This document shows, piece by piece, positions 22,208 through 48,246 of a stretch of 64,000 nucleotides of DNA. This stretch comes from Microbispora hainanensis. Its GTDB lineage: Bacteria > Actinomycetota > Actinomycetes > Streptosporangiales > Streptosporangiaceae. Below the pieces are notes generated by a model. That model had not been told where the DNA came from. It worked only from the letters and a program-made list of their open reading frames with translations, and made no database searches. Position numbers and translations under genes: made by a program. The DNA is taken from NCBI RefSeq assembly GCF_036186745.1, contig NZ_CP108086.1, positions 992,001-1,056,000 of the forward strand. Direction: 5' to 3'. Position 1 is the stretch's first letter. Each line of letters starts with the position of its first letter.

Positions 22208-22320
22208 GCTCACTCCCTCGCCTGCGCAGACACGGCAGGCGTGTTACGCCAACACAAAGCACACGTTACCCAGGAGGTGAGGTCATTATGTTCCGGCCGA
22301 CCGGCCCACATCCCCTTCCG

Positions 22321-23061: not shown

Positions 23062-24995
<1,934 letters not shown>

Positions 24996-25033
24996 GTTCT
25001 CCTCCTCCTGCTGCTGCGCGCGGCGACGGAACT

Positions 25034-25813: not shown

Positions 25814-25821
25814 GGCTCCAC

Positions 25822-25851
25822 ACGCTAGGTTTGCACTGTTTAGACGTCCAA
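25822..25851 (-). promoter_or_regulatory. Promoter of the b558-type sdh operon
   Basis: On the minus strand, TTGGAC (25851-25846), 18-bp spacer and TAGCGT (25827-25822) form a good sigma-70-type promoter; transcription would start within a few bases of the GTG start at 25813. Confidence 0.55.
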
Positions 25852-25872
25852 GTCATGAGAGGTCTGGTTTCG

Positions 25873-25887
25873 ATAGCCCCCGGCTAT
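25873..25887. promoter_or_regulatory. LysR-type operator 1, ATAGCC-N3-GGCTAT
   Basis: ATAGCCCCCGGCTAT is a perfect 6-bp-arm palindrome containing T-N11-A. It lies 22 bp upstream of the sdhC -35, the usual distance for LysR activation, and repeats the arms of operator 2. Confidence 0.8.
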
Positions 25888-25990
25888 GCGCTCTGCCCCA
25901 CCGCCATCCCAGAGGCGAAGGTCCCGAGGATGTGCGACGAAATTCACACCCGACGGCCACAGGTGGGGGCGCATGAAGTCGTCTTCGGCG

Positions 25991-26005
25991 ATAGCCCTAG
26001 GCTAT
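25991..26005. promoter_or_regulatory. LysR-type operator 2 overlapping the lysR promoter
   Basis: ATAGCCCTAGGCTAT carries the same arms as operator 1 and ends 6 nt before the LysR GTG. It includes the -10-like TAGGCT (25998-26003), so binding there should repress the regulator's own leaderless transcript. Confidence 0.8.
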
Positions 26006-26011
26006 TGAGGT

Positions 26012-26938: not shown

Positions 26939-27041
26939 GCCCTGACGTTGACGTGTGAGCCCTGCCCGAGCGGTTTCCAGACGATAGGTTTGTGCGAACG
27001 ATGCTGCACGACGCTGCTGCCGATGCTGACGAGAGGCGTTC

Positions 27042-29776: not shown

Positions 29777-30206
29777 ATTCCGCCCGATCGAGGTTCTCCT
29801 GGTCGAGGACGACCCGGGCGACGTCCTGCTCTGCCAGGAGGCGTTCTCCTACAACAAGGTCGGCAACACCCTCCACGTGGTCAACGACGGCGAGCAGGCG
29901 CTGGCCTTCCTGCGCGGCGAGGGGACGTACGGCTCGGCGCCCCGGCCCGATCTCGTGCTGCTCGACCTCAACCTGCCTCGCGTGAACGGCTTCGAGGTGC
30001 TGGAGGAGGTCAAGAGGGACCCCGCGTTGCACACCATCCCCGTTGTGATCCTCACCACATCGGAGGCCGAGCAGGATATCCTGCGGGGATACAACTTGCA
30101 CGCAAACGCGTACATCACCAAACCAGTGGATTTCGACCAGTTCACCCGGGTAGTACGGCAGATCGATGAATTCTTCGTGACCGTGGTCAAACTGCCGGGG
30201 AAGTGA
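29769..30206 (+). CDS. Single-domain response regulator (Rcp1-type)
   Basis: 145 aa, a receiver only. Acidic pair EDDPGD, phospho-acceptor in [15 protein letters not shown], conserved T in ILTTSE and K in [10 protein letters not shown]. It lacks an output domain, like Rcp1/CheY proteins that work by protein contact. Its start overlaps the end of the kinase gene by 8 nt. The GTGA-N6-TCAC site for the next operon overlaps its stop codon. Confidence 0.88.
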
Positions 30207-33894: not shown

Positions 33895-34455
33895 ATACCG
33901 CTGATCAGCTTTACCGTCGAAAACTACCGATGTTTTGCGAAGCCACAGAAAGTGGAGCTGCGACCGATCACCGTGGTGCTCGGAAGAAACAATTCCGGAA
34001 AGAGTGCACTTGTCCGGACACCGCTCCTCTTGCAGGCGGGCATCCGTACGACGTCCCGCTCGCCCTTCGACCTCGATCAGCTGGGCGACGAGGCACCTGA
34101 CTTCCGCCACTTGGTGTACGGCAGTCGGCCTCACGGCAGCATCCGGCTCGGACTGGAGTGCGCCAGCGGGCCAGCCGACGACGCACGGAGCGTCGACGTC
34201 ACCGTGCAGAACATCGACGAGTGGCAGGACCAGGTCGTCAGGCAATTGACCGTCACATCGGGTTCCGCCACAACGACATTGACCTGGTTGGACGAGTACG
34301 AGCTCGAAGTCAACCTCGCCGACGCGGGCACCGGAGAGCTGATGGAACGCGCTGCGGCAGACGGCCGGCTGACGCAGTCCGACTTCGAGAAGCTCGGCGA
34401 GGGCATCGCCACTGAACTACGCCAGCTTCTCACCATGCTTCAACGAATCATCTAG
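33895..34455 (+). pseudogene. Truncated AAA ATPase (SMC/DUF3696-like N-terminus)
   Basis: ~186 aa. The frame reads (ATA)PLISFTVENYRCFAKPQKVELRPITVVLGRNNSGKSAL, i.e. the normal N-terminus of ABC/OLD-like AAA ATPases with Walker A GRNNSGKS. The in-frame stop at 33883 rules out a further upstream start, and the first conventional start codon (GTG 33952) would delete the N-terminal strand. The start is therefore ATA 33895 or CTG 33901, or has been lost. The protein stops before the signature and Walker B motifs, so it cannot form an ATPase site. GC is visibly lower than in neighbouring genes. A DUF262 gene follows 8 nt later. Probably a decayed, horizontally acquired cassette. Confidence 0.65.
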
Positions 34456-34463
34456 GGGATGCC

Positions 34464-35204
34464 GTGCCAGACCGTGACGGGAAGCTCAGATCCGTCCCGC
34501 AGAGATGGGAACTGGAGGCGTTGATCGAGAAAGTCGCGAGCGGTGCTATCCGTGTGCCGTTGTTCAGCCGCCCCTTCGTCTGGCGTCCACGGCAGATGAC
34601 CGCTCTCTTCGAGAGCATTGAGGACGGCTATCCCATCGGCAGCCTGGTCCTGTGGGAGCCTGCCGATGAGGTGGAGAGCATGAATGAGATTGGCGGGATT
34701 CCGATACCGCCGCCACCACCCGGCCTGCCGATCTGCTACGTGCTCGACGGACACCAGCGCCTGGCGACCCTTTTCGGCTGTCTGCGTGCTCCCGCGTCCG
34801 CACAGGCTTCCGCCGATGCCTGGATGTGGCGGATATACCGTGTTCTTGGCCTTCGACTATCCCGTGAAAGCCGCTATAGGCACTCGGGCCCGGTCGAGGC
34901 TCCTCCGCATTGGCTGCCACTCAGATCGGTGCTCAGGACGAAGGATTTCCTCTCCTACCAGCGCGTCCTTACCGGCATTGCGCGGGGGGAGGAACTTGAG
35001 GAGCTTCTCCACGAGGCGTACGACGTGAGTCACCGGATCAAGGATTATCGCATTCCCGTCGTCCGGGTGATCGGAGGATCCCCCTCCCAGGCGACCACCG
35101 TCTTCTCCCGGCTCAACAGCGCCGGCCTGTCACTGACCGTGGACGAACAGGCCACAGCGCACGAGTACACCGACGGCTCGGAAAGCGCTCAAGACAGCGG
35201 GTGA
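34464..35204 (+). CDS. DUF262 (GmrSD N-terminal-like) protein, probably truncated
   Basis: 246 aa. The DUF262 signatures are clear: QRWELEALIEKVASGAIRVPLFSRPFVW near the start, DGHQRLATLFG (the DGQQR motif) and VFSRLNSAGLSLTVDE near the end. Full-length family members continue with a long helical or HNH-bearing part; here the frame ends ~20 residues later with unrelated-looking sequence. DUF262 proteins use an NTP-dependent ParB/Srx-type fold and many act in phage defence (GmrSD cleaves modified DNA). Next to the ATPase fragment it looks like a disabled defence cassette. GC is lower than in flanking genes. Confidence 0.75.
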   Translation: MPDRDGKLRSVPQRWELEALIEKVASGAIRVPLFSRPFVWRPRQMTALFESIEDGYPIGSLVLWEPADEVESMNEIGGIPIPPPPPGLPICYVLDGHQRLATLFGCLRAPASAQASADAWMWRIYRVLGLRLSRESRYRHSGPVEAPPHWLPLRSVLRTKDFLSYQRVLTGIARGEELEELLHEAYDVSHRIKDYRIPVVRVIGGSPSQATTVFSRLNSAGLSLTVDEQATAHEYTDGSESAQDSG

Positions 35205-35205
35205 C

Positions 35206-36225
35206 TCAGCGGCGGGTCGTGGGGTCCTCGTCCTCAGGGCCGTGAGGCTGCTGCGGAAGGTTACCCGACCGGGTGGCCTCGGCCCAGGGGTCCGGCTGGG
35301 CATGCATCTGGGCCTGCTGCTGCGCCTGCATCTGGGCCTGCATCTGGGCGGGGTCGGCCACCGGATATCCGTACGGCTGGGGGTAGCCGTACTGCACCGG
35401 GTAGCCGTAGGGCTGCTGCGCATAGCCCACGGTGTAGGGCTGGACGGGCACGAAGCCCACCATCGGCGCGTAGCCGGGGGCGGCCGCCGCGGGGTAGGCC
35501 GCTGCCGCCGCCTCGGGTGCCGGCGTCCGCGCCGCGGCCGGGCCGCCCCGCCGTACGGCGGCGGCGTGCGCCATCCGGCGCAGCCGGCCCTCGAAGATCA
35601 GCCAGGCGATCAGCGCGATGCCCACGAGCACCCCGGCGGGGATGGCGAGCCGGTGGGCCAGCGTGGGCTTGTCATACTCGGGCGTCGCGTTGCGGATCTC
35701 GATCGGCACCGTCTGGGGATCGGGCTGCTCGAACGTCACACCGCTCGGGGTGGGGCTCTGCTGCGCCGCGTCCGGCGTCGGCCCGGTCGACGCCGGGGCC
35801 AGGCTCACCTCCCCGTCGTCCTCCGGGGTCGGGCTGGGGGGATCCGTGACGGGGGTGTCGGTCAGCGTCGGGATCGACTGCCCAGTGTTCTGCCCGGTGT
35901 TCTGTTCCGTCGTGGACGCGGGGGGAGCGGTCGTGGTCGTGACCGGCTTGGGCGACTTGCTCGGCGACGGCGTCGGCGTGATGGTGATGGTCTTGGTCAC
36001 CACGGGCTCGGCCGTGGGGCTCGCGCTCGGCGACGACCCGACCGGCGGCGTCTGGGTGACGGTCACCGTGACGACGGCGCACTGGGGGTCCGTGGTGGGG
36101 TCGCACGGCTCCACCGGCTCGGCGTTCGCGCCGATCATCGGGCCCACGGCCAGGACCGCCAGCGTGGCGATGGCCACGGACGCGGCAGCCGAGGACGCGG
36201 CTCTCAGGTACACGCGTCCGATCAC
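35206..36225 (-). CDS. Surface-type protein with Pro/Thr-rich stalk and Tyr/Gln-rich tail
   Basis: 339 aa from GTG 36225, 7 nt after AGGAGG. Signal-like N-terminus (SSAAASVAIATLAVLAVGPMIGANA), then a ~130-residue Pro/Thr/Ser-rich region containing EQNTGQNTGQS, one TM (IPAGVLVGIALIAWLIFEG) and a cytoplasmic tail rich in Ala, then PYGYP-type repeats and QAQMQAQQQAQM. I recognise no domain. It has its own promoter but sits at the end of the secretion cluster and shares the QNTGQNTG motif with the TrbL-like protein at 38526-41072, which suggests a role at the same machine. Confidence 0.75.
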   Translation of the reverse strand: MIGRVYLRAASSAAASVAIATLAVLAVGPMIGANAEPVEPCDPTTDPQCAVVTVTVTQTPPVGSSPSASPTAEPVVTKTITITPTPSPSKSPKPVTTTTAPPASTTEQNTGQNTGQSIPTLTDTPVTDPPSPTPEDDGEVSLAPASTGPTPDAAQQSPTPSGVTFEQPDPQTVPIEIRNATPEYDKPTLAHRLAIPAGVLVGIALIAWLIFEGRLRRMAHAAAVRRGGPAAARTPAPEAAAAAYPAAAAPGYAPMVGFVPVQPYTVGYAQQPYGYPVQYGYPQPYGYPVADPAQMQAQMQAQQQAQMHAQPDPWAEATRSGNLPQQPHGPEDEDPTTRR

Positions 36226-36264
36226 CGCTCGCCTCCTGTCGGCCCTGCTACGAGGTCAGAACCG

Positions 36265-36292
36265 ATTGTAGATTGGTAAAAGCACGAGCAAA
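36265..36292 (-). promoter_or_regulatory. Promoter of the 35206-36225 gene
   Basis: On the minus strand TTTGCT (36292-36287), 16 bp, TACAAT (36270-36265). The strong -10 implies a leader of about 33 nt and shows that this gene need not depend on the long upstream operon. Confidence 0.55.
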
Positions 36293-36318
36293 GCCCGATC
36301 TTGCGAACGATTCGGCGA

Positions 36319-36720
36319 CTATCCGCCGTGATTCGGCAGCATTTTCTCGATCGCGGCGACGACCGGCAGATCCGCGGGAAGCCAGGGGACGTCGTAGAGC
36401 TCGTGCGGCTCCAGCCAGCGCAGCGCGAGGTGCTCCAGCGGGCGGGGCACACCCGTGACGACGGTCGCGAGCCACACACGCATCACCCAGTCGCCGTGCA
36501 GGGGCCAGTCGCCGCCGACCCGGCGTCCGAGGGCGACCTCGACCCCGAGCTCCTCGACGCACTCGCGCACCAACGCCGCGTGCTCGTCCTCCCCCGGGTC
36601 GACCTTGCCTCCGGGGAACTCCCAGCCCCCGCGCAGCGCCGGGGGCTCGGCCCGCTGGGCGGCGAGGAGACGGCCGCCCTCGACGATCGCGGCGCCGACG
36701 ACGAGACGCGGGCCCGTCAC
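36319..36720 (-). CDS. Nudix hydrolase (MutT/8-oxo-dGTPase-like)
   Basis: 133 aa. A complete Nudix box, GGKVDPGEDEHAALVRECVEELGV, fits GX5EX7REUXEEXGU. N-terminal VVGAAIVEGGRLLAAQRAEPPALRGGWEFPGG is typical of MutT-like pyrophosphohydrolases that clean oxidised nucleotides. The GTG start overlaps the stop of the wall-hydrolase gene (GTGA), so it is translated as part of the secretion operon. Why a sanitising enzyme should be coupled there is unclear; it may be chance operon capture. Confidence 0.88.
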   Translation of the reverse strand: MTGPRLVVGAAIVEGGRLLAAQRAEPPALRGGWEFPGGKVDPGEDEHAALVRECVEELGVEVALGRRVGGDWPLHGDWVMRVWLATVVTGVPRPLEHLALRWLEPHELYDVPWLPADLPVVAAIEKMLPNHGG

Positions 36721-37862
36721 GTCTGGGCCCTCTTGAGCTGCTCGATGACGGTCTCGTTCTCCAGCGGCCGGGTGAACCCCACGATGTTGGGCCGGTCACG
36801 GTACGTCGTGACCTTGATGGGCCCGCACAGCGTGCACCGCGCCTCGATCATCTTGCCGGGCGACACGACCATCCCGACATGCCCGGGATTGTCCTTAGAG
36901 GTGCCGGGGCCGGCGTTGAAGAAGACGAGGTCGCCGGGCTGCTCCTCGCCCGCCTCGATCTTCACGCCGAAGGGCCACTGGCCGAAGGTCGTGCGGGGAA
37001 TGGTCAGACCCGCGTTGCGGTAGGCCATGTAGATGATTCCCGAGCAGTCGAAGGCGTCCGGGCCCGTGCCGCCCCACCGGTACGGCTTGCCCCGCTGCGC
37101 CAGAGCGTACTCGAGGATCTTGCGGACGACGTCGTCGGGGGCGCTGTCGACGAAGCCGGAGTCGCAGGCCGGGTCGGCGTCGGGCGGCAGGCCGATCTCC
37201 CCGGTCGCCGCGTAGCGCTTGGCGATCTCCAGCACCTGGTCGACGTACCAGGTGGCCCGGTTGTAGACGAAGATCGCCCTTCTGAGGTCGTCGGGCGCGC
37301 CGTTGCGCTTGAGCATCTTGGCCGCGCCGAGGATCGCGTCCGCCGGGTCGTAGACGTCGCCGTAACCGTCCCCGTCGCCGTCGGAGGCGTAGCCGTTGAT
37401 CCCCGGCTCGATCTTGATCCTCGGCTGGCCGCCCCAGGTGCTGATGAGGAACTGCATCGGCCCCGCGGCCCCCGCGTAGTTGGTGCCGCTGCGCACCCCC
37501 GGCAGCGTCGAGCGGCCGTGGTTCGTCTCCCGCTTGCCGATGGCGGCCAGGACGTTCCACTGCACACCGATCTGCTTGCCGAACTTCTTGTAGAGCTCCA
37601 GGTAGTCGGCCGGGATGTCGCCCTGGGCGGTCTGCGAGACGTCGGCGGCGCCCTCCCCCGTGGCCGCCTGCGCGCAGTTCTCCGCCGCGCCGCCGCCGAA
37701 GAGGATCGACGGGCTGGGCGTCATCAGGATGATCGAGCCGAACAACGTGGCCGGGACGATCACGATGAGGGCCACGGCGATCATCCGCCAGTCCCGCCCC
37801 GCCGACGCGAGCCTGCGTACGACGCGCGTCGAGGCGGGAGTCATGCGCGGCGGAGCGGTCAC
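36717..37862 (-). CDS. Bifunctional peptidoglycan hydrolase (lytic transglycosylase + NlpC/P60)
   Basis: 381 aa. An N-terminal TM (~27-49) anchors it outside. The SLT-like domain follows (~85-225; catalytic Glu in GKRETNHGRS, then AGAAGPMQF), and then the NlpC/P60 domain (~243-370; Cys in FDCSGIIYMAY, His in PGHVGMV). This is the architecture of CwlT/VirB1-like enzymes that open the wall for Gram-positive type IV secretion. GTG 37862 overlaps the upstream gene by 4 nt and its own stop overlaps the Nudix start. Confidence 0.9.
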   Translation of the reverse strand: MTAPPRMTPASTRVVRRLASAGRDWRMIAVALIVIVPATLFGSIILMTPSPSILFGGGAAENCAQAATGEGAADVSQTAQGDIPADYLELYKKFGKQIGVQWNVLAAIGKRETNHGRSTLPGVRSGTNYAGAAGPMQFLISTWGGQPRIKIEPGINGYASDGDGDGYGDVYDPADAILGAAKMLKRNGAPDDLRRAIFVYNRATWYVDQVLEIAKRYAATGEIGLPPDADPACDSGFVDSAPDDVVRKILEYALAQRGKPYRWGGTGPDAFDCSGIIYMAYRNAGLTIPRTTFGQWPFGVKIEAGEEQPGDLVFFNAGPGTSKDNPGHVGMVVSPGKMIEARCTLCGPIKVTTYRDRPNIVGFTRPLENETVIEQLKRAQT

Positions 37863-38506
37863 GGCGTGCTGTCCCCGTCCTGACCGGCGTCGGCCAGTTG
37901 CAGGTCGTACACCCGCCAGTCGGTCCCTGCCTTGATCACGGTCACGGCGAAGCGCTCGGGCACGTCCTTCTGGCCGTTCTTGTCCGTGACGTGACGGACC
38001 GAGTCGACGACGAACACCACCTGGTCGGCCGTCATGTCGCGGATCGTCGTCACCTTCGCCGACCCCTTGGAGGTCACCTGGTCGGCCTCGTTCTGCTCCA
38101 CCACGGCGGGATCGGTGACGGTCCTGGTGATCTGCCCGCCGAACTCGTCGGTCGCGAACCGCTTCAGCCGGTCGGCGCGCGCCGCCGGCTCATCTCCGGG
38201 CGAGAAGGTGCCGTACGCCTCGGTGAAGCGGCGCGCGAGGTCGGCCGCGGCACCGATCTCCTGCCTCGACAGCGGCAGGTACGCGTACACGTCGAAGGCG
38301 CCCGGAGTCGTCGCCACCGGGCTGGGCTCGCGGGCCGCGGCCGTCGCCCGCGAGGTGGCGACGACCGACTGCTCCCTCGTCTGCTCGTCTCCCGAGGAGG
38401 AGTCCGACGGCCCGCTCATCGTGAGGTAGACGCCGACGGCGGCGAGCACCACAACGGCCGCCGCGAAGGCGAGCCCCTTCCCCCGATCACTGTTTCGGCT
38501 TCTCAT
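37859..38506 (-). CDS. Membrane-anchored secretion-cluster protein, unknown fold
   Basis: 215 aa from ATG 38506, 19 nt after the TrbL-like stop. One N-terminal TM (GLAFAAAVVVLAAVGVYLTM), a Ser/Thr/Ala-rich spacer, then a ~150-residue globular part (ADLARRFTEAYGTFSPGDEP... to RFAVTVIKAGTDWRVYDLQLADAG) with the alternating pattern of an NTF2/VirB8-like domain. Similar anchored NTF2-like proteins serve as periplasmic scaffold subunits. That assignment is inference. Confidence 0.7.
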   Translation of the reverse strand: MRSRNSDRGKGLAFAAAVVVLAAVGVYLTMSGPSDSSSGDEQTREQSVVATSRATAAAREPSPVATTPGAFDVYAYLPLSRQEIGAAADLARRFTEAYGTFSPGDEPAARADRLKRFATDEFGGQITRTVTDPAVVEQNEADQVTSKGSAKVTTIRDMTADQVVFVVDSVRHVTDKNGQKDVPERFAVTVIKAGTDWRVYDLQLADAGQDGDSTP

Positions 38507-38525
38507 GACGGCGCGGAGGTTCCCG

Positions 38526-41072
38526 TCAGTCGCCGGAGTCGCGGTCGGCGGGCTTGGCCCAGAACGGAGTGGGCGCGTCGCCGTCGCGGCGCGTGCTCTC
38601 TCCCCTGCTCGGCAGCCAGAGCGGCGGCGGCTCGGCCGAACGGGGACGGCTGGACGACCCGCCGAAGATGCCGCCGGACGAACCCGACTCGCGCGGGGCG
38701 GGCCGGGACCGGCCGCCGTCGCTGCGGCGGGACGATCCGCCGAAGATCCCACCGGACGAACCACCCGACGAACCACCGGACGACCGGTTCGAGGACCTGC
38801 CCGACGAGCCGCGCGAGCCGCCGCCGAAGAACCCGCCCGAGCCGCCGCCGGACGACCGGGTGGACGACGGCCGGGAGGCCCAGCCGCCACCGGACCTGCC
38901 GCCGAACCAGCCGCCACCACCGGATCCGCCGCTCGATCCACCGGACGACCCGCCGCTCGACCCGCCGCTCAGACGGCCGCGGGACGGCGCGGGCTGTGCT
39001 GTGGCTGACGCGGCAGACGGCGCGGGCACGGGGGACACGCCGGTGACCCGCTGCGGCGGGCTACCCGCCGACGCCGCAGACGCCGCGGACGCCGCGGACG
39101 CCGCGGACGCCGCCGACACGGCCTGTGCCGCCTGTGCCGCGGGGCGCTTGCCCGGGCCCGACGGCATGGACGCTCGTACGGCCCCGGCGGGGCGCACGCC
39201 CGAGAGGTTGAGCGGCGGGGCCGTACCCGGACGCGAGGCGGTGACCCCGGCCTTGCGGCGGCCGGCCCCCTGCGCGTCGGCGTCGAGCGGCGCGGGTTGC
39301 GCCCCCGCACGCGCTCCCGCCTGGGCGGGGACGTTGCTTGCGCCCTCCTCGCCGCGCACGCGGCCCTGCGCCACGCCCGTCGCGGCGGCCGCCGCCGTGC
39401 CCGCACCGGTCGCCATCGCGACCGCGCCCATGACCGGCTCGGCCTTGCGCAGCCCCCACCGGGCCGCCCGGGCCGCCGCCACCGGCGGCAGCGCGTTGGC
39501 CGCCCGCGAGAGGGTCGGCGCGGTCGCGGCCTCGCCGAGCATCCGGGTGGTGATCGTGTGCCCGTCCATCGAGGCGAACAGGTGCTGGAACGGCCGTCTG
39601 TAGAAGAAGACCGCGATCGTCAGCAGCGCCATGAACAGGATCTGCATGCCCCAGGGCAGGCTGGTCGAGATGATCAGCGCGTAGCCGTACACGAGGACGC
39701 CCAGCACCAGGGCCAGCACCGCCTGACGCAGCAGGGTGCCGACCAGCATCTCCACCCAGCGCATGGCGATGATGCGGCCGGAGCCCGGATGCACGCCGAT
39801 CAACAGGAAGACCGGTCCGAGCATCAGCAGCAGCAGGAAGCCGACCTTCAGCACGAGCAGCGACACCGCGACGAGGAAGATCAGCAGACCGGCGACCATC
39901 GCGGCGATGAACGCGCCGATCGCGATGCCCAGGCGGCTGGTCCAGTCCTTGCCCTGGAACAGGAAGTACGCCGGGGTGCTCTGCATCGGCTTGGCGATCT
40001 CCTCCTCGAACCGCTGCTGGTGCGAGTCGGAGGCCGGCGTCTGGTCGGCGGCCTGCTCGGCGGCGTCGATCGCCTGGAGGTTGAGCAGCTTGGCGCCCAG
40101 ACCCTTCACGAGACCGGAGTTGGGGTCGGCCGTGCCGAACTCGCCCATCAGCCACGGCTTGCAGACCAGGACCGACCACAGCGCGTCGGCGTTCTGCGCC
40201 ACACCGGGCGTGCCCTGGCGGCCGTACCCGCCCGCCGTCGGGGCGCTCGGCACCTCGCCCGGCGCGGTCTCCTTCATCGGCAGGCACGACGCGCCGCCCG
40301 CCCCGGGCAGCCCGGAGAACGCCGAGTTCACGATCTCGCCGGTCTTGTCGGTGACGGTCTTGCCGAGGCTGGTGAAGTCACCCGGACGGCTGAAGAACCA
40401 GATGGCGACCGTGACCGCGAGGACCATCCAGATGACGCCCTCGGTGGTCGTCGTCGCGCGCTTGCGGATCAGGCCGTACCACGCCAGCCAGATCGCGCCG
40501 AGGATGACGATCGGCCGCAGGTAGGGCCAGTACATCGCGTTGGCCAGGTTGGTGACGATCTCGTCGGCGACGTCCTTGATGGGCTGCAGCGGGCCCTCGG
40601 TCGCCGCCGCCTGGTAGGTGCTGATCGTCAGCCGGTCGACGGCCTTGGCCCACGAGAAGACCGTGTTGGCCCACGCGTTGCCGAGCACGGCCGTGACGTC
40701 GGAGCACCCGAGGTCATAGGTGTGCCAGAACTGGCCGGCCATGCCGTACCGCTCATAGTTGGTCTGCGGCTCCTTCGGCGCCTGCGCCGTGTTCTGGCCG
40801 GTGTTCTGACCTGTGTTCTGGCCGGCCACCGCGTCGTCGGTCGCCGGTGGCTGGACCAGCCCGTCGACGCCGCCGCCGACGATCTCGGGGGCGAGGTTGG
40901 GCGACAGGTCACAGGGCCCGACCGCGCTCGCCGTACTGGTGGGAAAAACCAGGGGAAGCGTCACGAACGCCGCGAAGGCGACGAGAAGCAGGGCCAGGGT
41001 CCGGCGGACCCGCCTGCCACGTCTGCCGCCCTCCCGGGTGCGACCCCTGGGACCGTTCCTGCGCACGCTCAC
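38526..41072 (-). CDS. TrbL/VirB6-like polytopic channel protein with Gly/Ser-rich tail
   Basis: 848 aa. A positively charged start and TM (LALLLVAFAAFVTLPLVF) are followed by an extracytoplasmic part containing AGQNTGQNTGQNTAQ, then about seven TM segments between ~160 and ~510 (YLRPIVILGAIWLAWYGLI, WMVLAVTVAIWFF, MVAGLLIFLVAVSLLVL, LLLLMLGPVFLLIG, MQILFMALLTIAVFFY). The long cytosolic tail is low complexity: AAS repeats, GGSSGGSSGG runs and GIFGGSS motifs. The arrangement fits the VirB6/TrbL family (TcpH-like) that forms the inner-membrane channel. GTG 41072 follows AGGAGG and overlaps the VirB4-like stop by 4 nt. Confidence 0.82.
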   Translation of the reverse strand: MSVRRNGPRGRTREGGRRGRRVRRTLALLLVAFAAFVTLPLVFPTSTASAVGPCDLSPNLAPEIVGGGVDGLVQPPATDDAVAGQNTGQNTGQNTAQAPKEPQTNYERYGMAGQFWHTYDLGCSDVTAVLGNAWANTVFSWAKAVDRLTISTYQAAATEGPLQPIKDVADEIVTNLANAMYWPYLRPIVILGAIWLAWYGLIRKRATTTTEGVIWMVLAVTVAIWFFSRPGDFTSLGKTVTDKTGEIVNSAFSGLPGAGGASCLPMKETAPGEVPSAPTAGGYGRQGTPGVAQNADALWSVLVCKPWLMGEFGTADPNSGLVKGLGAKLLNLQAIDAAEQAADQTPASDSHQQRFEEEIAKPMQSTPAYFLFQGKDWTSRLGIAIGAFIAAMVAGLLIFLVAVSLLVLKVGFLLLLMLGPVFLLIGVHPGSGRIIAMRWVEMLVGTLLRQAVLALVLGVLVYGYALIISTSLPWGMQILFMALLTIAVFFYRRPFQHLFASMDGHTITTRMLGEAATAPTLSRAANALPPVAAARAARWGLRKAEPVMGAVAMATGAGTAAAAATGVAQGRVRGEEGASNVPAQAGARAGAQPAPLDADAQGAGRRKAGVTASRPGTAPPLNLSGVRPAGAVRASMPSGPGKRPAAQAAQAVSAASAASAASAASAASAGSPPQRVTGVSPVPAPSAASATAQPAPSRGRLSGGSSGGSSGGSSGGSGGGGWFGGRSGGGWASRPSSTRSSGGGSGGFFGGGSRGSSGRSSNRSSGGSSGGSSGGIFGGSSRRSDGGRSRPAPRESGSSGGIFGGSSSRPRSAEPPPLWLPSRGESTRRDGDAPTPFWAKPADRDSGD

Positions 41073-43546
41073 GATCGCACCTCCTGCGCGACCCCCGACC
41101 GACCGGAGCCCCCGTCAAGAAGATCATGCACGTTCTCGTTGGGTTTGTCGTGTGTCGGATTGGTGTCAAGCCAGCGCAGCAGCTCTTCCGAGATAAGGTC
41201 CACCCCGATACGGCCGGCCCGGCCGTCCAGATCCCGGAAGACGCACTCCCCGTTGCCCAGGGAACGCAGCACCGCCTTGTGCTCCTCCGACGGGTCGACG
41301 CCCAGGAGCTCCATCACGTGCTCGACCTCCACGCGTTCCGTCGAACGGAACGCGAAGACCGACGACAGACAGTTGGTCACCTGCTCGTTGAGCAGGTCAC
41401 CGGCGTTCTGTGAGACCAGGACGAGCGCCGTGTTGCGCGAGCGGCCCATCCGGGAGACCTCCGGCACGAGCTTGGCGCCCTCGGGGGTGGACGTGATCGC
41501 CCACGCCTCGTCGAGGAAGATCGCCTTCGGCGTGCGCCGGTCGAGCCCGTTCATCAGGCGGCGCGCGAACTGCGACACCAGATAGAGCAGCGCGACCGAC
41601 AGCCGCTGCTCGTAGGAGTAGTCGTCCCTGGCCGTCATCACGTCGGGCAGCGTGAGGCCGCCGAGCGTGAACACGGTCGTCCAGCCCTCGGTGTCGATCT
41701 GCTCGCCGCCCGAGGCGTCGAAGCACAGCCGGGCGAGGTGCATCTCCGACATCGACCGCAGCACGGCGCCGAGGTTCTTCGACGCCGGGTCGGTCGACTG
41801 CTCCAGGTGATCCACGACCTTGCCCAGCGAGGGGTCGGGCTCGTTGGAGACCGCGGCGACCGCCTGGATCATGGCGGACTCGCGCTCCTCCGACATCCTC
41901 GGCAGCAGCAGCCGCAGGGTCTCGGTCGCCATCGTCTTCTTCGTCGCGATGTCGTCGCCGAACGAGAACGGGTCGAGCAGGCCCGGCGAGGCCGATCCCA
42001 GCGGGATGACCCTGGCTCTGCGGCCCCGGTCGCGCAGCAGCCGTACGAGCGACTCGGCGTCGCCCTTGGGGTCGATGACCGCGATCGTGACGCCGCGCAG
42101 CGCCATCTGGTAGATCAGCAGCAGCGCGAGCGTGGTCTTGCCACCGCCCGGCTCACCGGTGATCGCGATGGCGGTCGGGCGGTTGCGCGCCGCCGCGACG
42201 AGCGGATCGAAGTGCACGATGCTGCGCGCCCGCCCCAGCGTCTCCCCCACGTACGGCCCGATCCAGCCGGCGTTCGACTCGTCCACCCGGTCGCCGAGCT
42301 CGACGGTCGCCGTGGCCATGCCGCCCGCGATCGTGCGCAGCGGCTGCCGCTGGGCGTACGCGTTGACCCGCAGCCGCTCGCCGGGAAGGGCCTCGCAGAA
42401 CAGCGAGAACTGGTCGCCGGTGGAGTTGACGACGTCGATGCCGATGTCGCGGTAGTGCTCCACGACGGCCTCGACCCGCTGGACGCACATCTCCTCGGTC
42501 GGCGCGCTCACGCTCAGGCGGTGCCAGCCGTACACGAACGGCAGGCGTTCCTTGGTGATGCCGTGCTCCAGCATGCGGGCGGCGTCGATCTGCTCGGCCA
42601 GCGCGAGCGGCGCCTCCGCGCCCGCCTCGCGGATGTGGATGTCCATGTCGCGGGCGTGGGCCAGCTTGCGCGCCACGTCCTTGCTCGCCCTGACCGGGGG
42701 GATCAGCCGCATCCGGCTGGAGATCTCCACGGGGAACGGCAACTGGTCGGCGAAGTGCAGCCACGGCTCGCCGTCGGGGAACGGCATGAGGTCGGGGAAC
42801 CGGGCGAACGACAGGTGCGCGGTGTAGGAGTCTCCGGCCGGCTGCTCGATCCGCAGCAGCGACCTGCCGTTGTGGATCTGCCCCTCGACCAGCGCCTCGA
42901 TCTCGCCCTTGCCCCACCTGCGGCGCGGCGTGGCCGAAGGGGACGGCTCGCCGAGGCCGCCCGCCGCCGCGTGCTGGAACAGCCAGGCGATCTCCGTCGA
43001 GGTGGCGTGGCGGGCGTAGAGCGCGCTGGAGGCCAGGGCCCGGCCGAGCCGCTCGGCGGCCTCGGTCCACCGGGTGATCTCCTTGTCCGGCACGTGATCG
43101 TCCTCGATGCCGAGCGCCTTCTCGCTGCGCTGGTAGAAGCCGAAGAGCTGGGCCAGCACGCCGGTGCCGAGCTGCGCGCCACGCGGCCCGAGCCGTACGC
43201 CGAGATAGACCTCCTTGCTCCAGAAGTCCTTGGCCCAGACGTGGCGGTACATCTCCTCCAGGTACTCCCGCCAGCCCGGGCCCTCGTCGGAGGTCGAGTT
43301 GAGCGCCATCGCCCACTCCGCCGCCGGGTAGGCCCGGTGCGCGATGCGCAGGTGCACCTCGGCGTCGGACATCCTGATCGCGGCCAGCGCGATCGTGATG
43401 TTGGTGGCCAGCGCCTCGCGCTCCTCGGGGGTGAGGAACTCGTAGCTCACCGTCGGCAGCCGGAAGTAGGCCCAGGCCGCCGAGTCGGTGAGAAGAACCC
43501 GGTCGTCGAAGTAACGCACCGCGAGGCGACTGCGCGCCCTGCTCAT
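41069..43546 (-). CDS. VirB4-like conjugation/secretion ATPase
   Basis: 825 aa. The N-terminal ~460 residues are the VirB4-type non-ATPase part. The RecA-like domain has Walker A AITGEPGGGKTTLALLL (~475), Walker B KAIFLDEAWAIT (~700) and LVLVSQNAGDLLNEQ downstream, a motif typical of VirB4/TraC. It powers assembly and substrate transfer at the inner membrane. Length matches Gram-positive homologs (TcpF, ConE). The start lies 30 nt after the TcpE-MinD stop. Confidence 0.9.
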   Translation of the reverse strand: MSRARSRLAVRYFDDRVLLTDSAAWAYFRLPTVSYEFLTPEEREALATNITIALAAIRMSDAEVHLRIAHRAYPAAEWAMALNSTSDEGPGWREYLEEMYRHVWAKDFWSKEVYLGVRLGPRGAQLGTGVLAQLFGFYQRSEKALGIEDDHVPDKEITRWTEAAERLGRALASSALYARHATSTEIAWLFQHAAAGGLGEPSPSATPRRRWGKGEIEALVEGQIHNGRSLLRIEQPAGDSYTAHLSFARFPDLMPFPDGEPWLHFADQLPFPVEISSRMRLIPPVRASKDVARKLAHARDMDIHIREAGAEAPLALAEQIDAARMLEHGITKERLPFVYGWHRLSVSAPTEEMCVQRVEAVVEHYRDIGIDVVNSTGDQFSLFCEALPGERLRVNAYAQRQPLRTIAGGMATATVELGDRVDESNAGWIGPYVGETLGRARSIVHFDPLVAAARNRPTAIAITGEPGGGKTTLALLLIYQMALRGVTIAVIDPKGDAESLVRLLRDRGRRARVIPLGSASPGLLDPFSFGDDIATKKTMATETLRLLLPRMSEERESAMIQAVAAVSNEPDPSLGKVVDHLEQSTDPASKNLGAVLRSMSEMHLARLCFDASGGEQIDTEGWTTVFTLGGLTLPDVMTARDDYSYEQRLSVALLYLVSQFARRLMNGLDRRTPKAIFLDEAWAITSTPEGAKLVPEVSRMGRSRNTALVLVSQNAGDLLNEQVTNCLSSVFAFRSTERVEVEHVMELLGVDPSEEHKAVLRSLGNGECVFRDLDGRAGRIGVDLISEELLRWLDTNPTHDKPNENVHDLLDGGSGRSGVAQEVRS

Positions 43547-43576
43547 CGACCTCTCACCAGCTTCCTCGCTCGCCCC

Positions 43577-46576
43577 TCATCTGGCCACCTCCTGCTTGGC
43601 CTGGACAGCCGCCAGGCCGCTCACGATCACACCCGCAAGCGCAACGTACGCCCTGCGGCCGCCCATTCGGAGGTGATTGACGTCGACCGGTCCCGGCCGC
43701 CCAGGAGCCAGCTCGTCCTCCCAGGGCACCCGGACGATCGCCCGGCAGCGGCCGCTGGCCACCGCCTCGGCCTGCTCCACGTCGGGGAGGCTGCGGCGGC
43801 TCACGCCGTTGATCACCATTACGGCGCGTCGCCGCAGGTCGGAGCAGCCGTGCCCGTCGAGCCACTCGTAGGTCATCGCCACCGCCTCGGAGGCGTCCTC
43901 GCTCGCGGGGGCGACCAGCACGAGCTGGTCGGCGTACGGCAGGAGCCGGGCCGCCAGCGCGGCCGCGGGGTCGATCACGGTAAGCCGGTAGTGCCGGTCG
44001 AGCGCGGCGAGCGTCCTGCGCCAGTCGGCCAGGAACGCGCGTTCGGCCAGGCGCTGCGTCACCCGGTCGTCGGTGTCCGCCCCGACGACCTCAAGCCCCG
44101 ATTCACAGCGCGTCGTGTACGCCCGCATGCCGAGGTAGCCGTTCACCTCTTCCGAGCTCTCGATGAGCGAGCTCAGCGTTTCGGGGGACTCGGCGGCGAT
44201 CCTCGTCGTGAGCGTGTCTTCTCCGGTGTTCGCGTCGAGCGCGAGCACACGGTCATCGCGATAGCGGGCCAATGTGTGGCCCAGCATTAACGCCGTGGTC
44301 GTCTGCCCGGCGCCGCCGGTGCAGCCGAGCACCATGATCCGCCTGCTCGTGGTGAGCGGGATGCGGGTCCTGGCCTCGTCGACCTCCATGCCGTCCGTAC
44401 GGCTGCCGCCCACGACGACCTGCGCCAGGCGGCGCCAGCCTCCGGAGGTGTCACGTCCGACGACGGCCTCGACGCGGCGCAGGCGCGGCGGCTCCTCGTG
44501 CGCCGGCCTGCCGGGGGTGGGCGTCCCCGGGGTGGGCAGCGACGGCCGGGCGGGACCGGCCGGGCCCGCGGCGCGCGGCCCCACAGGCACGGCGCGGATC
44601 GACACTCCCGCCGTGCCCGCCGAACCCGCAGCGCCCGCTGAACGAGGGGTGCCCACAGTGCCCGCAGCGCTCTCGTACGGCCTGGCCCCCGTGTGGTGCG
44701 CCGCCTCCCGGGCGGGCGTGTCCCGCGTCTCAGGTTGGGAAGCAGGTCGGGAAGCAGTGGAGACGTCGGCCGCCGGCTCCAGGGGCTCCGGGAGCGCTGG
44801 GGGTGCCTGAGGCGCTAGCGGCTGCGGGGGGGCTGGGGGCGCCGCCTCCGTGGCCGCGTGAACCACGGGCGCCTCGCCCGCCGGCTCCAGGGTCTCAATG
44901 GGCGCCATGGACGCGGGGGATGCCGCTTCTGTGGCCGCGTGAACCACGGGCACCTCGCCCGCCGGCTCGCCCGCTGCGTCGCTCTCCGTGCCGACCGGCA
45001 CCCGGGGCCGCACGAGCCGCGGCGGACGGCCCTTCCGATGCTGCGCGAGTGCCTCGGCGGCGTGCTGTGCCGTCGTTTCCCGCGCCGTCGTTTCCCGCGC
45101 CGTCGTTTCCCGGGCCGTGGTTTCCCGGGCCATGGGTGCCCGACCCGCGTCCTCGGCGGGCCTCCGGGGCGCGTCCGCGGCGTCAGCGGCGTGCGCGCGC
45201 TCCACCGCAGCCGACTCCGGCTCGGGTTCCGGCAACGGCCCGGGCTCCAGCTCCAGCTCCGGCTCAGTGAAGGACGCCGCACCGGACGACCGTACGGCGT
45301 GAGGCTCGGGAGTCTGCTCGGGCCGGGGTTCGGGAGCCTGTTCGAGGCGGGGCTGGGGACCGGGCTCGGGACCGGGCTGGGGACGGGGCTCGGCCGAGGC
45401 GGCGAGCCTGCGGAGGCGGCGCAGCGTCTCGGTGCCGATGGGAGGGACGGCGTGCGGAGCAGCGGGTGCCTCCGACGCCTCGGCGGGCGCGGCGGACTCA
45501 GCGGCGGCCAGGGGCGCGTGCTCCACAGGTGCCGGCGCAGCGCCCTGCCCAGAGTCCTGCACGGCGCCATGCGCAGAGTCCTGCACAGCGTCCAGCACAG
45601 TGCCCTGCACAGCGTCCAGCACAGTGCCCTGCACAGCGTCCAGCACAGTGCCCTGCACAGTGCCCTGCACAGTGCCCTGCGTAGAGTCCTGCATGGGGTC
45701 CTGCACGGCGGCATGCACAGGGCCCGGCTCGTGGCTCTCTTCGCGGCTCTCGTGAAGCTCCTGGGGCTCGCGTTCCCGCTCCAACTCCGTCGGCGACGGC
45801 GGCGGCGGCGGGGGCACTGACGACACAGACGACGCGGCCGGCAGGGGCGGCGCAGGTGACGCAGACGGCAGGGGCGGCGCGGAGGACACAGGCGACGCGG
45901 ACGGCGCGGGCGGCGCGGGCGGCTGCGTGAGGTAGACGACGCGCTCGCCGGTGGCGCCCGCCCGGGAGGCGGCACCGCTTCGGGACAGAGGTGCGGGAGG
46001 CGCGTCGGCGACCGGGGCGGCGGCGGCAGCGGCGGCCGCCACGGCCGGGCGTACGACACGTGACGGATCCACCTGATGCGCGCCTGCTCGCGCGGCGGCC
46101 CGCGAGGCCGGCCGCGCGCCGCTCCTGGAGACCTTCGGAACGGGCACCTTGACCGAGACCGCGCGGCGCGCCTTGCGTTCCGCCCTGGCCTGCGGCGCCG
46201 CGACCGGCGGCGTGGTCCGCCAGACACGCGCCGTCAGCGTGACCTCATCCGGCTCGTCGAACGGGGCCATACGGCACCACGTGCGGGGCTCGCTCATGTA
46301 GCGGAGCTGCGACTGGAGCAGCTCGGTGAGGCGCTTGCTCTCGATGACAGGGCGGGTGGACAACCAGGTGAGCACACCCGGCGGAACGAGGTAGATGACG
46401 TGCCAGGGAGCCTCGAACGGCAGTCCGATCAGGTAGAGGAAGACCCACCACGGCACGGAGACACCCACGAACACACCGATCCAGACGACCGGAAGCGGCA
46501 TCGGCAGCCGTAGGTCGTACAGCTTGTACAGCCGCTTCTCAATACGCCAGATATTGGTATACGTGGGCAGATCCAC
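43577..46576 (-). CDS. TcpE-like membrane domain fused to MinD/ParA-like ATPase
   Basis: 999 aa from GTG 46576, chosen because AGGAGG lies 6-7 nt upstream. Residues ~1-115 (PTYTNIWRIEKRLYKLYDL, two TMs, RLTELLQSQLRYM) match the TcpE/PrgI-like subunit of Gram-positive conjugation systems. A ~600-residue Pro/Ala/Glu linker follows with in-frame repeats (QGTVLDAV x3, ARETT x4, duplicated VVHAATEAA). The last ~255 residues are a MinD/ParA-like domain (IMVLGCTGGAGQTTTALMLGHTLA, LALDANTGEDTL, LTVIDPAAALAARLLPYADQLVLVAPAS). The P-loop reads CTGGAGQTTT: both lysines of the deviant Walker A are replaced, so ATP hydrolysis is doubtful. EspI of ESX-1 also joins a Pro-rich region to such a domain. Confidence 0.8.
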   Translation of the reverse strand: MDLPTYTNIWRIEKRLYKLYDLRLPMPLPVVWIGVFVGVSVPWWVFLYLIGLPFEAPWHVIYLVPPGVLTWLSTRPVIESKRLTELLQSQLRYMSEPRTWCRMAPFDEPDEVTLTARVWRTTPPVAAPQARAERKARRAVSVKVPVPKVSRSGARPASRAAARAGAHQVDPSRVVRPAVAAAAAAAAPVADAPPAPLSRSGAASRAGATGERVVYLTQPPAPPAPSASPVSSAPPLPSASPAPPLPAASSVSSVPPPPPPSPTELEREREPQELHESREESHEPGPVHAAVQDPMQDSTQGTVQGTVQGTVLDAVQGTVLDAVQGTVLDAVQDSAHGAVQDSGQGAAPAPVEHAPLAAAESAAPAEASEAPAAPHAVPPIGTETLRRLRRLAASAEPRPQPGPEPGPQPRLEQAPEPRPEQTPEPHAVRSSGAASFTEPELELEPGPLPEPEPESAAVERAHAADAADAPRRPAEDAGRAPMARETTARETTARETTARETTAQHAAEALAQHRKGRPPRLVRPRVPVGTESDAAGEPAGEVPVVHAATEAASPASMAPIETLEPAGEAPVVHAATEAAPPAPPQPLAPQAPPALPEPLEPAADVSTASRPASQPETRDTPAREAAHHTGARPYESAAGTVGTPRSAGAAGSAGTAGVSIRAVPVGPRAAGPAGPARPSLPTPGTPTPGRPAHEEPPRLRRVEAVVGRDTSGGWRRLAQVVVGGSRTDGMEVDEARTRIPLTTSRRIMVLGCTGGAGQTTTALMLGHTLARYRDDRVLALDANTGEDTLTTRIAAESPETLSSLIESSEEVNGYLGMRAYTTRCESGLEVVGADTDDRVTQRLAERAFLADWRRTLAALDRHYRLTVIDPAAALAARLLPYADQLVLVAPASEDASEAVAMTYEWLDGHGCSDLRRRAVMVINGVSRRSLPDVEQAEAVASGRCRAIVRVPWEDELAPGRPGPVDVNHLRMGGRRAYVALAGVIVSGLAAVQAKQEVAR
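45070..45135 (-). repeat. 15-bp in-frame tandem repeat (ARETT)
   Basis: Four copies of a 15-bp unit (plus-strand GCCGTCGTTTCCCGC) encode ARETT in the linker of the TcpE-MinD fusion. They are good sites for slippage-driven length change. Confidence 0.8.
45560..45690 (-). repeat. 24-bp in-frame tandem repeat (QGTVLDAV)
   Basis: Three near-identical 24-bp units, flanked by shorter QGTV copies, encode the heptad-like QGTVLDAV run in the linker of the TcpE-MinD fusion. Confidence 0.8.
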
Positions 46577-46598
46577 CCCGAACCTCCTCTCCGCCCGA

Positions 46599-46886
46599 TC
46601 ACTTGATGCCAAGTGCGCCCGCGATCGCCTTCGCCGTCACCTCGATGATGTTGGGAACGTAAAAGATCACGCCGATCGCGATCGCCAGGATGATGAACTG
46701 GACGAACCTGGTGATCTCGCGGGTGAAGAGGAAGAAGATCGCCACGACGGAGACGACCGCGAGGAAGAGCGGAGCGAAGAACCTCCGGAGGAAGTCGGCG
46801 AGCCCTTCGGTGTTGATGCCCGCCGTCGGCGCCGGTGAGGGCGCGGCGAGATCAAGGAAGTGGTCCGCGATGGTCTTCAGTATCAA
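46599..46886 (-). CDS. TcpD/VirB2-like small membrane protein
   Basis: 95 aa from TTG 46886. Short N-terminal helix (ILKTIADHFLDLAAP), then two TMs (FFAPLFLAVVSVVAIFFLF; FVQFIILAIAIGVIFYV) and a short amphipathic end (NIIEVTAKAIAGALGIK). Size, position between TcpC- and TcpE-like genes and topology fit TcpD or a VirB2-like pilin/ring subunit. There is no signal peptidase site I would trust. Confidence 0.75.
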   Translation of the reverse strand: MILKTIADHFLDLAAPSPAPTAGINTEGLADFLRRFFAPLFLAVVSVVAIFFLFTREITRFVQFIILAIAIGVIFYVPNIIEVTAKAIAGALGIK

Positions 46887-46936
46887 CTCTCGCCCTCCCG
46901 GGGGGATGGATCAGCGATGTCTTTGCCGGGCATGCG

Positions 46937-47947
46937 CTACCCCACGGACCGGTTCGCACCCTGGATGTCCCTGACGAACCACTTGCCGCCCTGCTTTTCC
47001 ATGGTCAGCTGATAGGCCTGTTCGAGACCGGCCGGCTGTGCCGCCGGGTCCTGCGACGGGCTCGCCACCCCCGCCGACTGTCCTGACGCGACCGCCCACA
47101 CGACCACGGCCGTGACCTTCCTGCTGTCGGAACTGCCCGGCGGGACCACCACGTCCTTCAGCTCGGCGAGGCTGAACTCGCCGTTGAACCCGTTCACGGT
47201 CACCCCGCTCGCGACGTAGCGCTGGAGGTCGACCTGGTTGCCCGCGGCGTACGCCTTGAAGAAGCCTTCGAGCTGGGGACGCAGTTCGGCCTCGGTGGCG
47301 GAGTCGCGGTCGGGGTCCGGGAGCTGCGGCAGCCCTGCCGGGCCGGGCGCGGGAAGCAGGGCCGGCTGGGCCGAAACCACGAACCTGCCGTTGTCGTAGT
47401 AGACCGGCACGGACAGCAGCCCGCGGGTGCCCCCCGACTGGTAGGTCACGGTCACTCGGGCGTTGTGGTCGTCGATCACGTCGATGCCGGTGAACTGGAA
47501 GGCCCCCGCGGACATGCGTCCGTAGCCGTTCCAGCCGAACTGCTCGTCGGCGCCCTCCGGCAGGAAGGTCCTCAGCCGCTCCGCGCGCTGCTGGGGATTG
47601 GCCGCGTCGTAGTTGAGGTAGACCGCCGCGAACTGGTTGGCGAAGGCCGCCGCCTGCGTCACCGGGAATCCGGAGGTGGCCGAGCCGGTGGGGGCCACGC
47701 CGGCCGGGTCGTCCTGCGTCAGCCGATCAAGCGGGGCGCGGATGCCGTTGACCACGATGACGATGATCAGCGCCCAGAGGATGACCCGCCCGGTCCAGAC
47801 GAGCCAGCGGCCTCCACCACCGCTCCAGCCTCTGCGGCGGGGGACCGTGCCGTGCGCCGCGCTCGCCGCCTCGAAACCTTCCAGTGGGTACGGGTCAGGG
47901 TCGCCAGCGATCCGCGGATCCTGCTGGACGTCTGACCTGCGAGCCAT
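46937..47947 (-). CDS. TcpC-like conjugation scaffold protein (VirB8-like)
   Basis: 336 aa from ATG 47947 (GGAGG 4 nt upstream; GTG 47950 also possible). Cytosolic N-terminus (~55 aa), one TM (VWTGRVILWALIIVIVVNGI), then two NTF2-like domains (AAAFANQFAAVYLNYDAANPQQRAERLRTFL...; ELRPQLEGFFKAYAAGNQVDLQRYV...). That is the TcpC architecture, which recruits other subunits in Clostridium pCW3 conjugation and is the VirB8 counterpart. First gene of the minus-strand operon that runs to the Nudix gene. Confidence 0.85.
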   Translation of the reverse strand: MARRSDVQQDPRIAGDPDPYPLEGFEAASAAHGTVPRRRGWSGGGGRWLVWTGRVILWALIIVIVVNGIRAPLDRLTQDDPAGVAPTGSATSGFPVTQAAAFANQFAAVYLNYDAANPQQRAERLRTFLPEGADEQFGWNGYGRMSAGAFQFTGIDVIDDHNARVTVTYQSGGTRGLLSVPVYYDNGRFVVSAQPALLPAPGPAGLPQLPDPDRDSATEAELRPQLEGFFKAYAAGNQVDLQRYVASGVTVNGFNGEFSLAELKDVVVPPGSSDSRKVTAVVVWAVASGQSAGVASPSQDPAAQPAGLEQAYQLTMEKQGGKWFVRDIQGANRSVG

Positions 47948-48027
47948 CACGCCTCCGCTCGCGCCGATCCCTCCGGCTGGCGCGGTTTCCTCTTGCTCTC
48001 GATCCGGTTAACCGCATTGAAGTATTC

Positions 48028-48033
48028 ACCCTA
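48028..48033 (-). promoter_or_regulatory. -10-like element upstream of the secretion operon
   Basis: TAGGGT on the minus strand, ~80 nt before the TcpC start, within a local AT-rich patch; no convincing -35. It is the best promoter candidate for the whole operon. Confidence 0.3.
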
Positions 48034-48246
48034 GCGGCCTCGCCAATTCTTCCAGGTAAGCCACGCCCATGGTGCAAGCATCGCCGCGACCGAGCAAACC
48101 GGGTCCACATCCCCAGAGAGACGCCCCACACCTATCCACTCCGCGAAAAAGCACGTTACGCCTGGCCAGCGGGGGCATCGATTACCTAACCGCCACCTAT
48201 TGCTGTCTTCGCAGCTCGCAGGCATAACGAAACCGTCCGTACGCGC
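48034..48246. other. Gene-free stretch between secretion operon and secreted-protein gene
   Basis: Noticeably lower GC than its surroundings. I see no credible gene or repeat; it probably holds promoter and leader sequence for the operon to its left. Confidence 0.5.

Follow-up and report, generated by a model that had tools for sequence, protein, structure and literature searches.

To our knowledge, the functions of type IV secretion systems (T4SSs) in Gram-positive bacteria are nearly all in DNA transfer. The closest described relatives of the system treated here belong to mating-pair-formation class FA (MPF-FA), represented by TcpC, TcpD, TcpE and TcpF of pCW3 and by ICEBs1 and Tn916. T4SSs without a relaxase are already a known kind (PMC3158045), and such MOBless systems, including those of Patescibacteria, are described as chromosomal, mostly relaxase-less and probably co-opted (PMC12102498). 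In Streptomyces, deletions in the cmdABCDEF operon were reported to delay sporulation and to impair chromosome segregation, with 8% (cmdB deletion) and 6% (cmdA-F deletion) anucleate spores versus 0.1%; deletion of cmdA left sporulation visibly unaffected, and plasmid transfer is given as unchanged (data not shown in that paper; PMC2782261). Mutants of the gene that bears the following locus number, tgdA (SCO4132), are reported to raise antibiotic production to the same level as cmd mutants (PMC6585502). Here we analyze a T4SS-like operon of Microbispora hainanensis (Streptosporangiales) in a stretch of 64,000 nucleotides, hereafter the window, which spans positions 992,001-1,056,000 (0.992-1.056 Mb) of the single 8.80-Mb contig NZ_CP108086.1.

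A sequence-only reading of the window had proposed a fixed, repurposed secretion apparatus, perhaps for protein export or contact with other cells, rather than an integrative element; that the apparatus is fixed, repurposed and no integrative element is strongly supported by what follows. We interpret the locus as a domesticated MPF-FA-type channel that has passed down vertically, next to ychF, from an ancestor shared by most of the order, and that would serve export or the envelope with the help of a pseudo-ATPase module for docking (probability about 0.58). Neither the order-wide locus nor the fusion of TcpE to a MinD-like domain described below was found in a prior report in the open-access literature searched, and we regard the fusion as new.

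Composition and conservation of the operon

The operon consists of nine packed open reading frames (ORFs), all on the minus strand, running from 47950 down to 35206. It opens with a TcpC/VirB8-like anchored protein (46937..47950; 337 aa from the GTG at 47950, with the ATG at 47947 the more likely start; Pfam TpcC 65 bits, E 9.7e-18), followed by a small hydrophobic membrane protein of 95 aa in the TcpD position (46599..46886). The latter is a putative TcpD, named from size, position and hydrophobicity alone: of the earlier TcpD-like assignment the small hydrophobic protein in the right position stands, and the name has no further basis. The third protein (43577..46612, 1011 aa) carries a VirB3-like TcpE domain at residues ~17-115 (Pfam TcpE 76 bits), a proline-rich linker of ~600 aa and a MinD-like domain at ~736-1011, so that its earlier description as TcpE-like holds for the domain, which covers only the first ~115 of the 1011 residues. 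The VirB4 ATPase (41069..43546, 825 aa; Pfam AAA_10/VirB4 232 bits) additionally matches HerA-type helicase models in Pfam; its nearest named NCBIfam model is TcpF (244.5 bits against a cut-off of 1100) versus 53 bits for VirB4_CagE, and by these scores it is of the TcpF/ConE type, though not TcpF itself.

Next comes a TrbL/VirB6-like membrane protein of the CD3337/EF1877 type (38526..41072; Pfam TrbL 36 bits; NCBIfam CD3337_EF1877 84.6 bits, below the cut-off of 120), and then an anchored protein of 215 aa with a single NTF2-like domain (37859..38506), apparently a second VirB8/TcpC-like subunit. The latter matched Pfam TpcC weakly (E 0.0093, below cut-off), and its five-sequence profile found the solved chain of OmamC, which we take to be NTF2-like, at 3.3e-6 and the TcpC-like structure 3ub1 at E 0.083. 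The core ends with a CwlT/VirB1-like wall hydrolase (36717..37862) that combines SLT and NlpC/P60 domains (Pfam NLPC_P60 73.5 bits; SLT_2 24.7 bits, cut-off 24.3). Among 22 CwlT ORFs searched by pattern, the NlpC motif DCS was found in 21 and GHVG in 20 (in that of genome G313 the first DCS match is located elsewhere in the ORF), and the SLT pattern in the nine nearest ORFs only.

Thus the core is complete for a monoderm channel, with VirB1/CwlT, VirB3/TcpE, VirB4, VirB6/TrbL, VirB8/TcpC and a second NTF2-like subunit. TcpC, TcpE, TrbL and CwlT components stand together in one operon with Pfam matches above cut-offs, as expected of an MPF-FA member, and the TcpF-type VirB4 adds to this likeness, sharing ~30% identity with homologues on Bacillus plasmids along 96-97% of its own length. 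The differences from MPF-FA systems are that no linked relaxase was found, that a VirD4-type ATPase occurs beside one relative only (genome G234, discussed below), that there is no integrase, that the chromosomal site is fixed, that TcpE is fused to a MinD-like domain and that a second NTF2-like subunit is present. The MOBless systems of Patescibacteria are likewise chromosomal and without relaxase, but are described as mostly FATA-related with VirB2-like pilins (PMC12102498), whereas the present one is FA-type with the MinD fusion.

Among 334 genomes of the order that passed a completeness filter of 80%, 332 have a VirB4 match at E <= 1e-50, representing 68 of 69 genera, and all but eight genomes gave one match when at most two candidates per genome were scored. 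The two genomes without it were the sole members of one family, f3, in that search; a third, less complete genome of f3 gave weak VirB4 matches only. In a class-wide sample searched at 1e-12, matches were obtained in 75 of 393 genomes: 45 from the window's own family (78-100% identity) and 30 others (34% or less). The VirB4 of Nonomuraea gerenzanensis, also of Streptosporangiales, is 89% identical.

Synteny was compared over 23 chromosomal loci: the window, 32 kb of N. gerenzanensis and 20-40 kb around VirB4 in 21 other genomes. The series ychF-TcpC-TcpD-TcpE-MinD-VirB4-TrbL-NTF2-CwlT was present in full and colinear in 22 of the 23, and the last locus (G120), which begins at a contig end, was colinear for the parts it holds. 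The synteny comparison suggested by the sequence-only reading thus found the locus fixed beside ychF, with a ychF-to-TcpC gap of 0.4-9.7 kb. In two genomes of genus g26 (G374 and G225), a gene that looks kinase-like by eye and other genes are inserted between VirB4 and TrbL.

Purifying selection acts on VirB4: the ratio of nonsynonymous to synonymous substitution rates (dN/dS) had a median of 0.091 and a range of 0.048-0.130 (105 pairs among 15 same-genus genes), and the Walker A motif GEPGGGKTT and the DEAW motif were unchanged in 25 of 25 sequences, including two plasmid copies. Median identity to the window was 81.7% for VirB4 (22 loci), similar to IspH (81.2%, 17 loci) and YchF (80.2%, 21 loci) and above RmuC (67.9%, 20 loci), while other parts of the machine drift faster (TcpD 72% in 21 relatives, CwlT 49%, TcpC 45%, TrbL 43%). 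Quick trees of VirB4 and of YchF plus RmuC from the same 17 genomes had 11 of 14 splits in common, which suggests mainly vertical descent. Moreover, the G+C content of the operon (0.72) is close to that of the window (0.71), and composition therefore shows no sign of recent arrival.

The two plasmid copies, from Nocardiopsis (L045 and L046), have VirB4 sequences at 71-75% identity that are nested among the chromosomal genes (support 87). On these plasmids the gene order is rearranged, and TcpE is encoded apart from a canonical MinD; both plasmids are typed as non-mobilizable by PLSDB, and no relaxase was found in the nine ORFs scanned. The nested position and the split, rearranged genes suggest that the channel moved from chromosome to plasmid rather than from plasmid to chromosome.

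The fused MinD-like domain and the comparison with cmd

Of the 22 chromosomal loci in which both TcpE and the MinD-like domain are visible, 21 encode them in a single ORF, and the exception (G173) has a frameshift in the linker. The MinD-like domain follows a proline-rich linker, which is ~370-1410 aa long among the relatives; within the linker of the window, 14 overlapping repeat copies, mostly at 12-nt spacing, lie at 45497-45728. MinD proteins have the P-loop KGGVGKT, and the deviant Walker A motif of the MinD/ParA family is KGGxGK[ST]. In the fused domain both P-loop lysines are gone and the deviant Walker A pattern does not match: all 23 loci read GCTGGAGQ followed by T or S.

A model of the fused domain gave at least one match at E <= 1e-8, fused or free-standing, in 137 of 246 genomes of the class. 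It matches MinD-like actinobacterial proteins, including the SCO5717 family, near full length, many at 170-215 bits, and one free-standing, Streptomyces-like member matches the SCO5717 N-terminal model. In contrast to the T4SS-fused copies, the free-standing relatives selected from the match list kept KGGVGKT in 20 of 20. A quick tree of 45 domains placed the 23 fused ones in one group (SH-aLRT 100), which together with the shared P-loop fits a single fusion and a single lysine loss before the spread of the order. The fused domain is predicted to be an ATPase-dead pseudo-ATPase. An EspI-like identity of the domain was considered and not adopted: some free-standing members adjoin cytochrome-assembly or ribF genes, outside a recognized ESX locus, and the literature searched gave it no support.

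We propose that VirB4 would power the channel and CwlT would open the wall, while the fused MinD-like domain, no longer cycling with ATP, may serve as a fixed docking arm that holds the channel at a particular site in the cell (tip or septum) or delivers substrate to it. With no VirD4, the choice of substrate must lie elsewhere, and the fused domain is the strongest candidate for a docking or positioning role; an arm of this kind would account for a machine that operates in the absence of VirD4. A role that serves the cell, in export or in the envelope, is somewhat better favored than DNA transfer, and as substrate a protein or a component of the envelope is most likely, ahead of conjugative DNA. 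By analogy with the Streptomyces cmd operon, the most likely role would be in the mycelial envelope or in development, a link to mycelial development being in itself tentative. Possible, though rather doubtful, is a bolder model: an order-wide core machine without any coupling ATPase, in which the pseudo-MinD arm on the VirB3 subunit would not only set the channel's place in the hypha but also present its own substrates, and which Streptomyces would have matched independently with a different T4SS class (cmd).

The cmd operon with tgdA (SCO4126-4132) resembles the present locus in being a chromosomal operon, in a mycelial actinobacterium, for membrane proteins and a VirB4-like ATPase, next to a transglycosylase gene. 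The two differ in that CmdB, at ~470 aa, is without the N-terminal half of VirB4. Orthology was not borne out by comparison of CmdB loci, at least 80 of which were fetched using a motif derived from a primer in PMC2782261. One CmdB sequence scored 9 bits on the profile of the window VirB4 versus 45 bits against the VirB4 of a separate element at 1.90 Mb of the M. hainanensis genome, and hhalign aligned CmdB with the window VirB4 family at a probability of 18.6% and E 0.0013 over the ATPase half (narrow alignments). Ten cmd loci of 8 kb each gave no TcpE match and a MinD match at E 7.3 only, and an alignment search with VirB4 at E <= 1e-8 gave no match in 12 of the 13 genomes from the presumed Streptomyces genus. 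By these comparisons cmd is most likely a distant relative, from a separate T4SS domestication. A contig titled Microtetraspora glauca (L176) is 86% identical over 7.4 kb to a Streptomyces cmd locus, and may come from a misnamed or contaminated assembly.

DNA-transfer genes and rival explanations

The claim that the window holds no relaxase, coupling ATPase or integrase was borne out by Pfam in 44 of its 51 called ORFs (seven spurious-looking ones were left out). The window also holds no tRNA, and flanking direct repeats of the att kind were not convincing, those found being short and 71-80% alike. Elsewhere in the genome, TraG-D_C matches were found at 1.90 and 5.51 Mb and Replic_Relax only at 1.90 Mb (1.903); neither TrwC nor Rep_trans gave a match, in a genome-wide relaxase search that did not extend to MOBP or other families. 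FtsK-type ATPases were found at 1.28 Mb (1.278, the nearest to the window) and beyond, including 2.30 Mb. Thus, for the suggested genome check for VirD4 and relaxase genes, none is linked to the operon, but such genes exist elsewhere. The 1.90-Mb region (C1:1894000-1905200) is a separate element resembling an integrative and conjugative element (ICE), with a SCO6880/PrgI-type protein, VirB4, a VirD4-like ATPase, a Replic_Relax relaxase and a CwlT-like hydrolase; its VirB4 belongs to a different type (301 bits with the CD1110 model, whose cut-off is 325). The FtsK/SpoIIIE-type ATPases at C1:1278000 and C1:2302000 resemble parts of actinomycete ICEs, and a phage-type integrase stands beside the second. 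No relative of this 2.30-Mb integrase turned up in the window beyond its first 20 kb, in 40-kb flanks on each side or in the syntenic stretches. The two FtsK-type proteins and the VirD4-type proteins of the genome had no relative in the syntenic stretches except that of G234, the FtsK family itself having been searched in the own genome only.

All 46 genomes of the family carry the VirB4. Above cut-off, TraG-D_C was found in 24 of them, T4SS-DNA_transf in 19, Replic_Relax in 21 and Rep_trans in none, and neither VirD4-type family (PF12696, PF02534) was found in 22. The sequence-only reading had held that a coupling protein and a relaxase just outside would argue for an integrative element, and this applies in part to one of the 23 loci: in G234 a VirD4-like gene (L077:11450-13207) lies 4.5 kb downstream of CwlT, adjoining genes for an M48 peptidase and a zinc-ribbon protein. 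No relaxase was recognized in the five ORFs scanned near it; the encoded protein has close relatives in genomes G416 and G020 and no relative in the other syntenic stretches.

Several hallmarks of an ICE are therefore missing at the locus: i) no linked relaxase was found in the families searched, and no linked coupling ATPase except in G234; ii) there is no integrase in the ORFs scanned, no convincing att repeat and no tRNA; and iii) the distribution is not patchy and the site not variable. Distribution, synteny and dN/dS led us to reject an ICE, intact or decaying, and the locus is very probably fixed and, in its present form, unable to transfer itself. Conjugation-type parts without linked relaxase, coupling ATPase and integrase would suit a decaying or dormant ICE remnant, but such a remnant is scarcely credible given a dN/dS of 0.09, intact VirB4 motifs, presence in 332 of 334 genomes and one conserved site without tRNA or convincing flanking repeats.

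Some observations weigh against a domesticated export or envelope machine. Loss of the lysines is not proof of lost ATPase activity. Some MPF-FA systems use FtsK-type coupling proteins, a family searched here in the own genome only. The TraG-type genes in 24 of 46 family genomes make coupling in trans possible, and the VirD4-like gene of G234 stands close to the channel itself. Furthermore, cmd apparently belongs to another T4SS lineage, so that the functional parallel is an analogy, and mutants in a second T4SS-like cluster of Streptomyces (SCO6878, SCO6881) are reported to have had no such phenotype (PMC2782261).

Related to these points is the view that the locus is a resident conjugation channel used in trans by VirB4-less plasmids, actinomycete ICEs (AICEs) and mobilizable elements that bring a coupling protein and a relaxase. 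The family's TraG-D_C genes, the own TraG-type gene at 5.51 Mb (where a profile search found no VirB4), the G234 neighbor and the nested Nocardiopsis copies favor this view, but it is unlikely, since 22 of the 46 genomes lack both VirD4-type families, the 1.90-Mb element has its own VirB4, and conservation at the level of housekeeping genes is poorly explained by benefit to passing elements. We also consider it improbable that the machine exports contact-dependent or secreted effectors against other microbes or hosts, as near-universality in an order is unusual for an antagonism system and no effector or immunity gene was recognized by Pfam in the 44 ORFs of the window. Relaxase-less T4SSs are reported often to export proteins (PMC3158045), and part of the family has variable proline-rich anchored proteins downstream of the operon; in the Gram-positive case described, the 89K island of S. 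suis (PMC12857230), the VirD4 that is missing here is required. Finally, the machine might handle the cell's own chromosomal DNA, for example DNA trapped at sporulation septa, with VirB4 as the motor. MinD-family proteins position DNA and division machinery, and the HerA-type matches of VirB4 would suit such a task. The anucleate spores of the cmdB and cmdA-F deletions point the same way (PMC2782261), but orthology with cmd is not apparent, the genome has an FtsK-type protein and, the VirB4 motor aside, Pfam recognized no DNA-binding domain in the operon, which leaves this explanation very doubtful. We retain the domesticated channel with a docking module as our interpretation.

Surroundings of the operon and significance

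The last two genes of the operon are peripheral. A Nudix hydrolase (36319..36720, minus strand; Pfam NUDIX 65 bits) overlaps CwlT by 4 nt, and a Pro/Thr-rich anchored secreted protein without Pfam match (35206..36225, minus strand) has matches limited to the window and nine near relatives. From TcpC through Nudix the spacing is -14 to +50 nt, with three 4-nt overlaps, and the last gap, between Nudix and the proline-rich gene, is 93 nt. The sequence-only description of an operon of TcpC-, TcpE-, VirB4-, TrbL-, CwlT- and NTF2-like and Nudix genes is thus confirmed by Pfam and profile matches and tight gaps. Nudix, however, is part of the operon in the window and lies outside the conserved core: it is displaced or not found in several relatives, and both end genes were rejected as core parts, being moved or not found in relatives.

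Upstream of tcpC, a 5' leader or promoter region (47951..48190, minus strand) has strongly conserved stretches in 10 of 10 aligned genomes of the near subclade. It contains a TAGGGT box and a stretch preceding the ribosome-binding site that may, by eye, form a hairpin; the region could not be aligned with the distant clade. Further upstream lie two secreted-looking ORFs, a galactocerebrosidase-like enzyme of glycoside hydrolase family 59 (GH59) with a ricin-type lectin domain (51638-54055), and then ychF, rmuC, ispH and exonuclease VII genes. Downstream, between the operon and a fumarate-reductase-type flavoprotein gene, are a gene with a GmrSD N-terminal domain and a short ORF bearing a P-loop by eye (33952-35204), perhaps a degraded defense system. 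Near the locus, at 21308-30206, two STAS-domain proteins, a response regulator with a SpoIIE-type phosphatase, a sensor kinase and a second response regulator may form a sigma-factor control module.

Effector-type Gram-positive T4SSs are named in a 2025 review as a long-standing question needing attention (PMC12857230), and an earlier survey counts few T4SSs in actinobacteria (PMC3158045). The T4SS described here is near-universal in its order, with an ATPase constrained like housekeeping genes. Together with cmd, the locus suggests that conjugation channels were domesticated more than once in mycelial actinobacteria, and the lysine-less MinD fusion offers a specific, testable handle on how a T4SS may work independently of VirD4.

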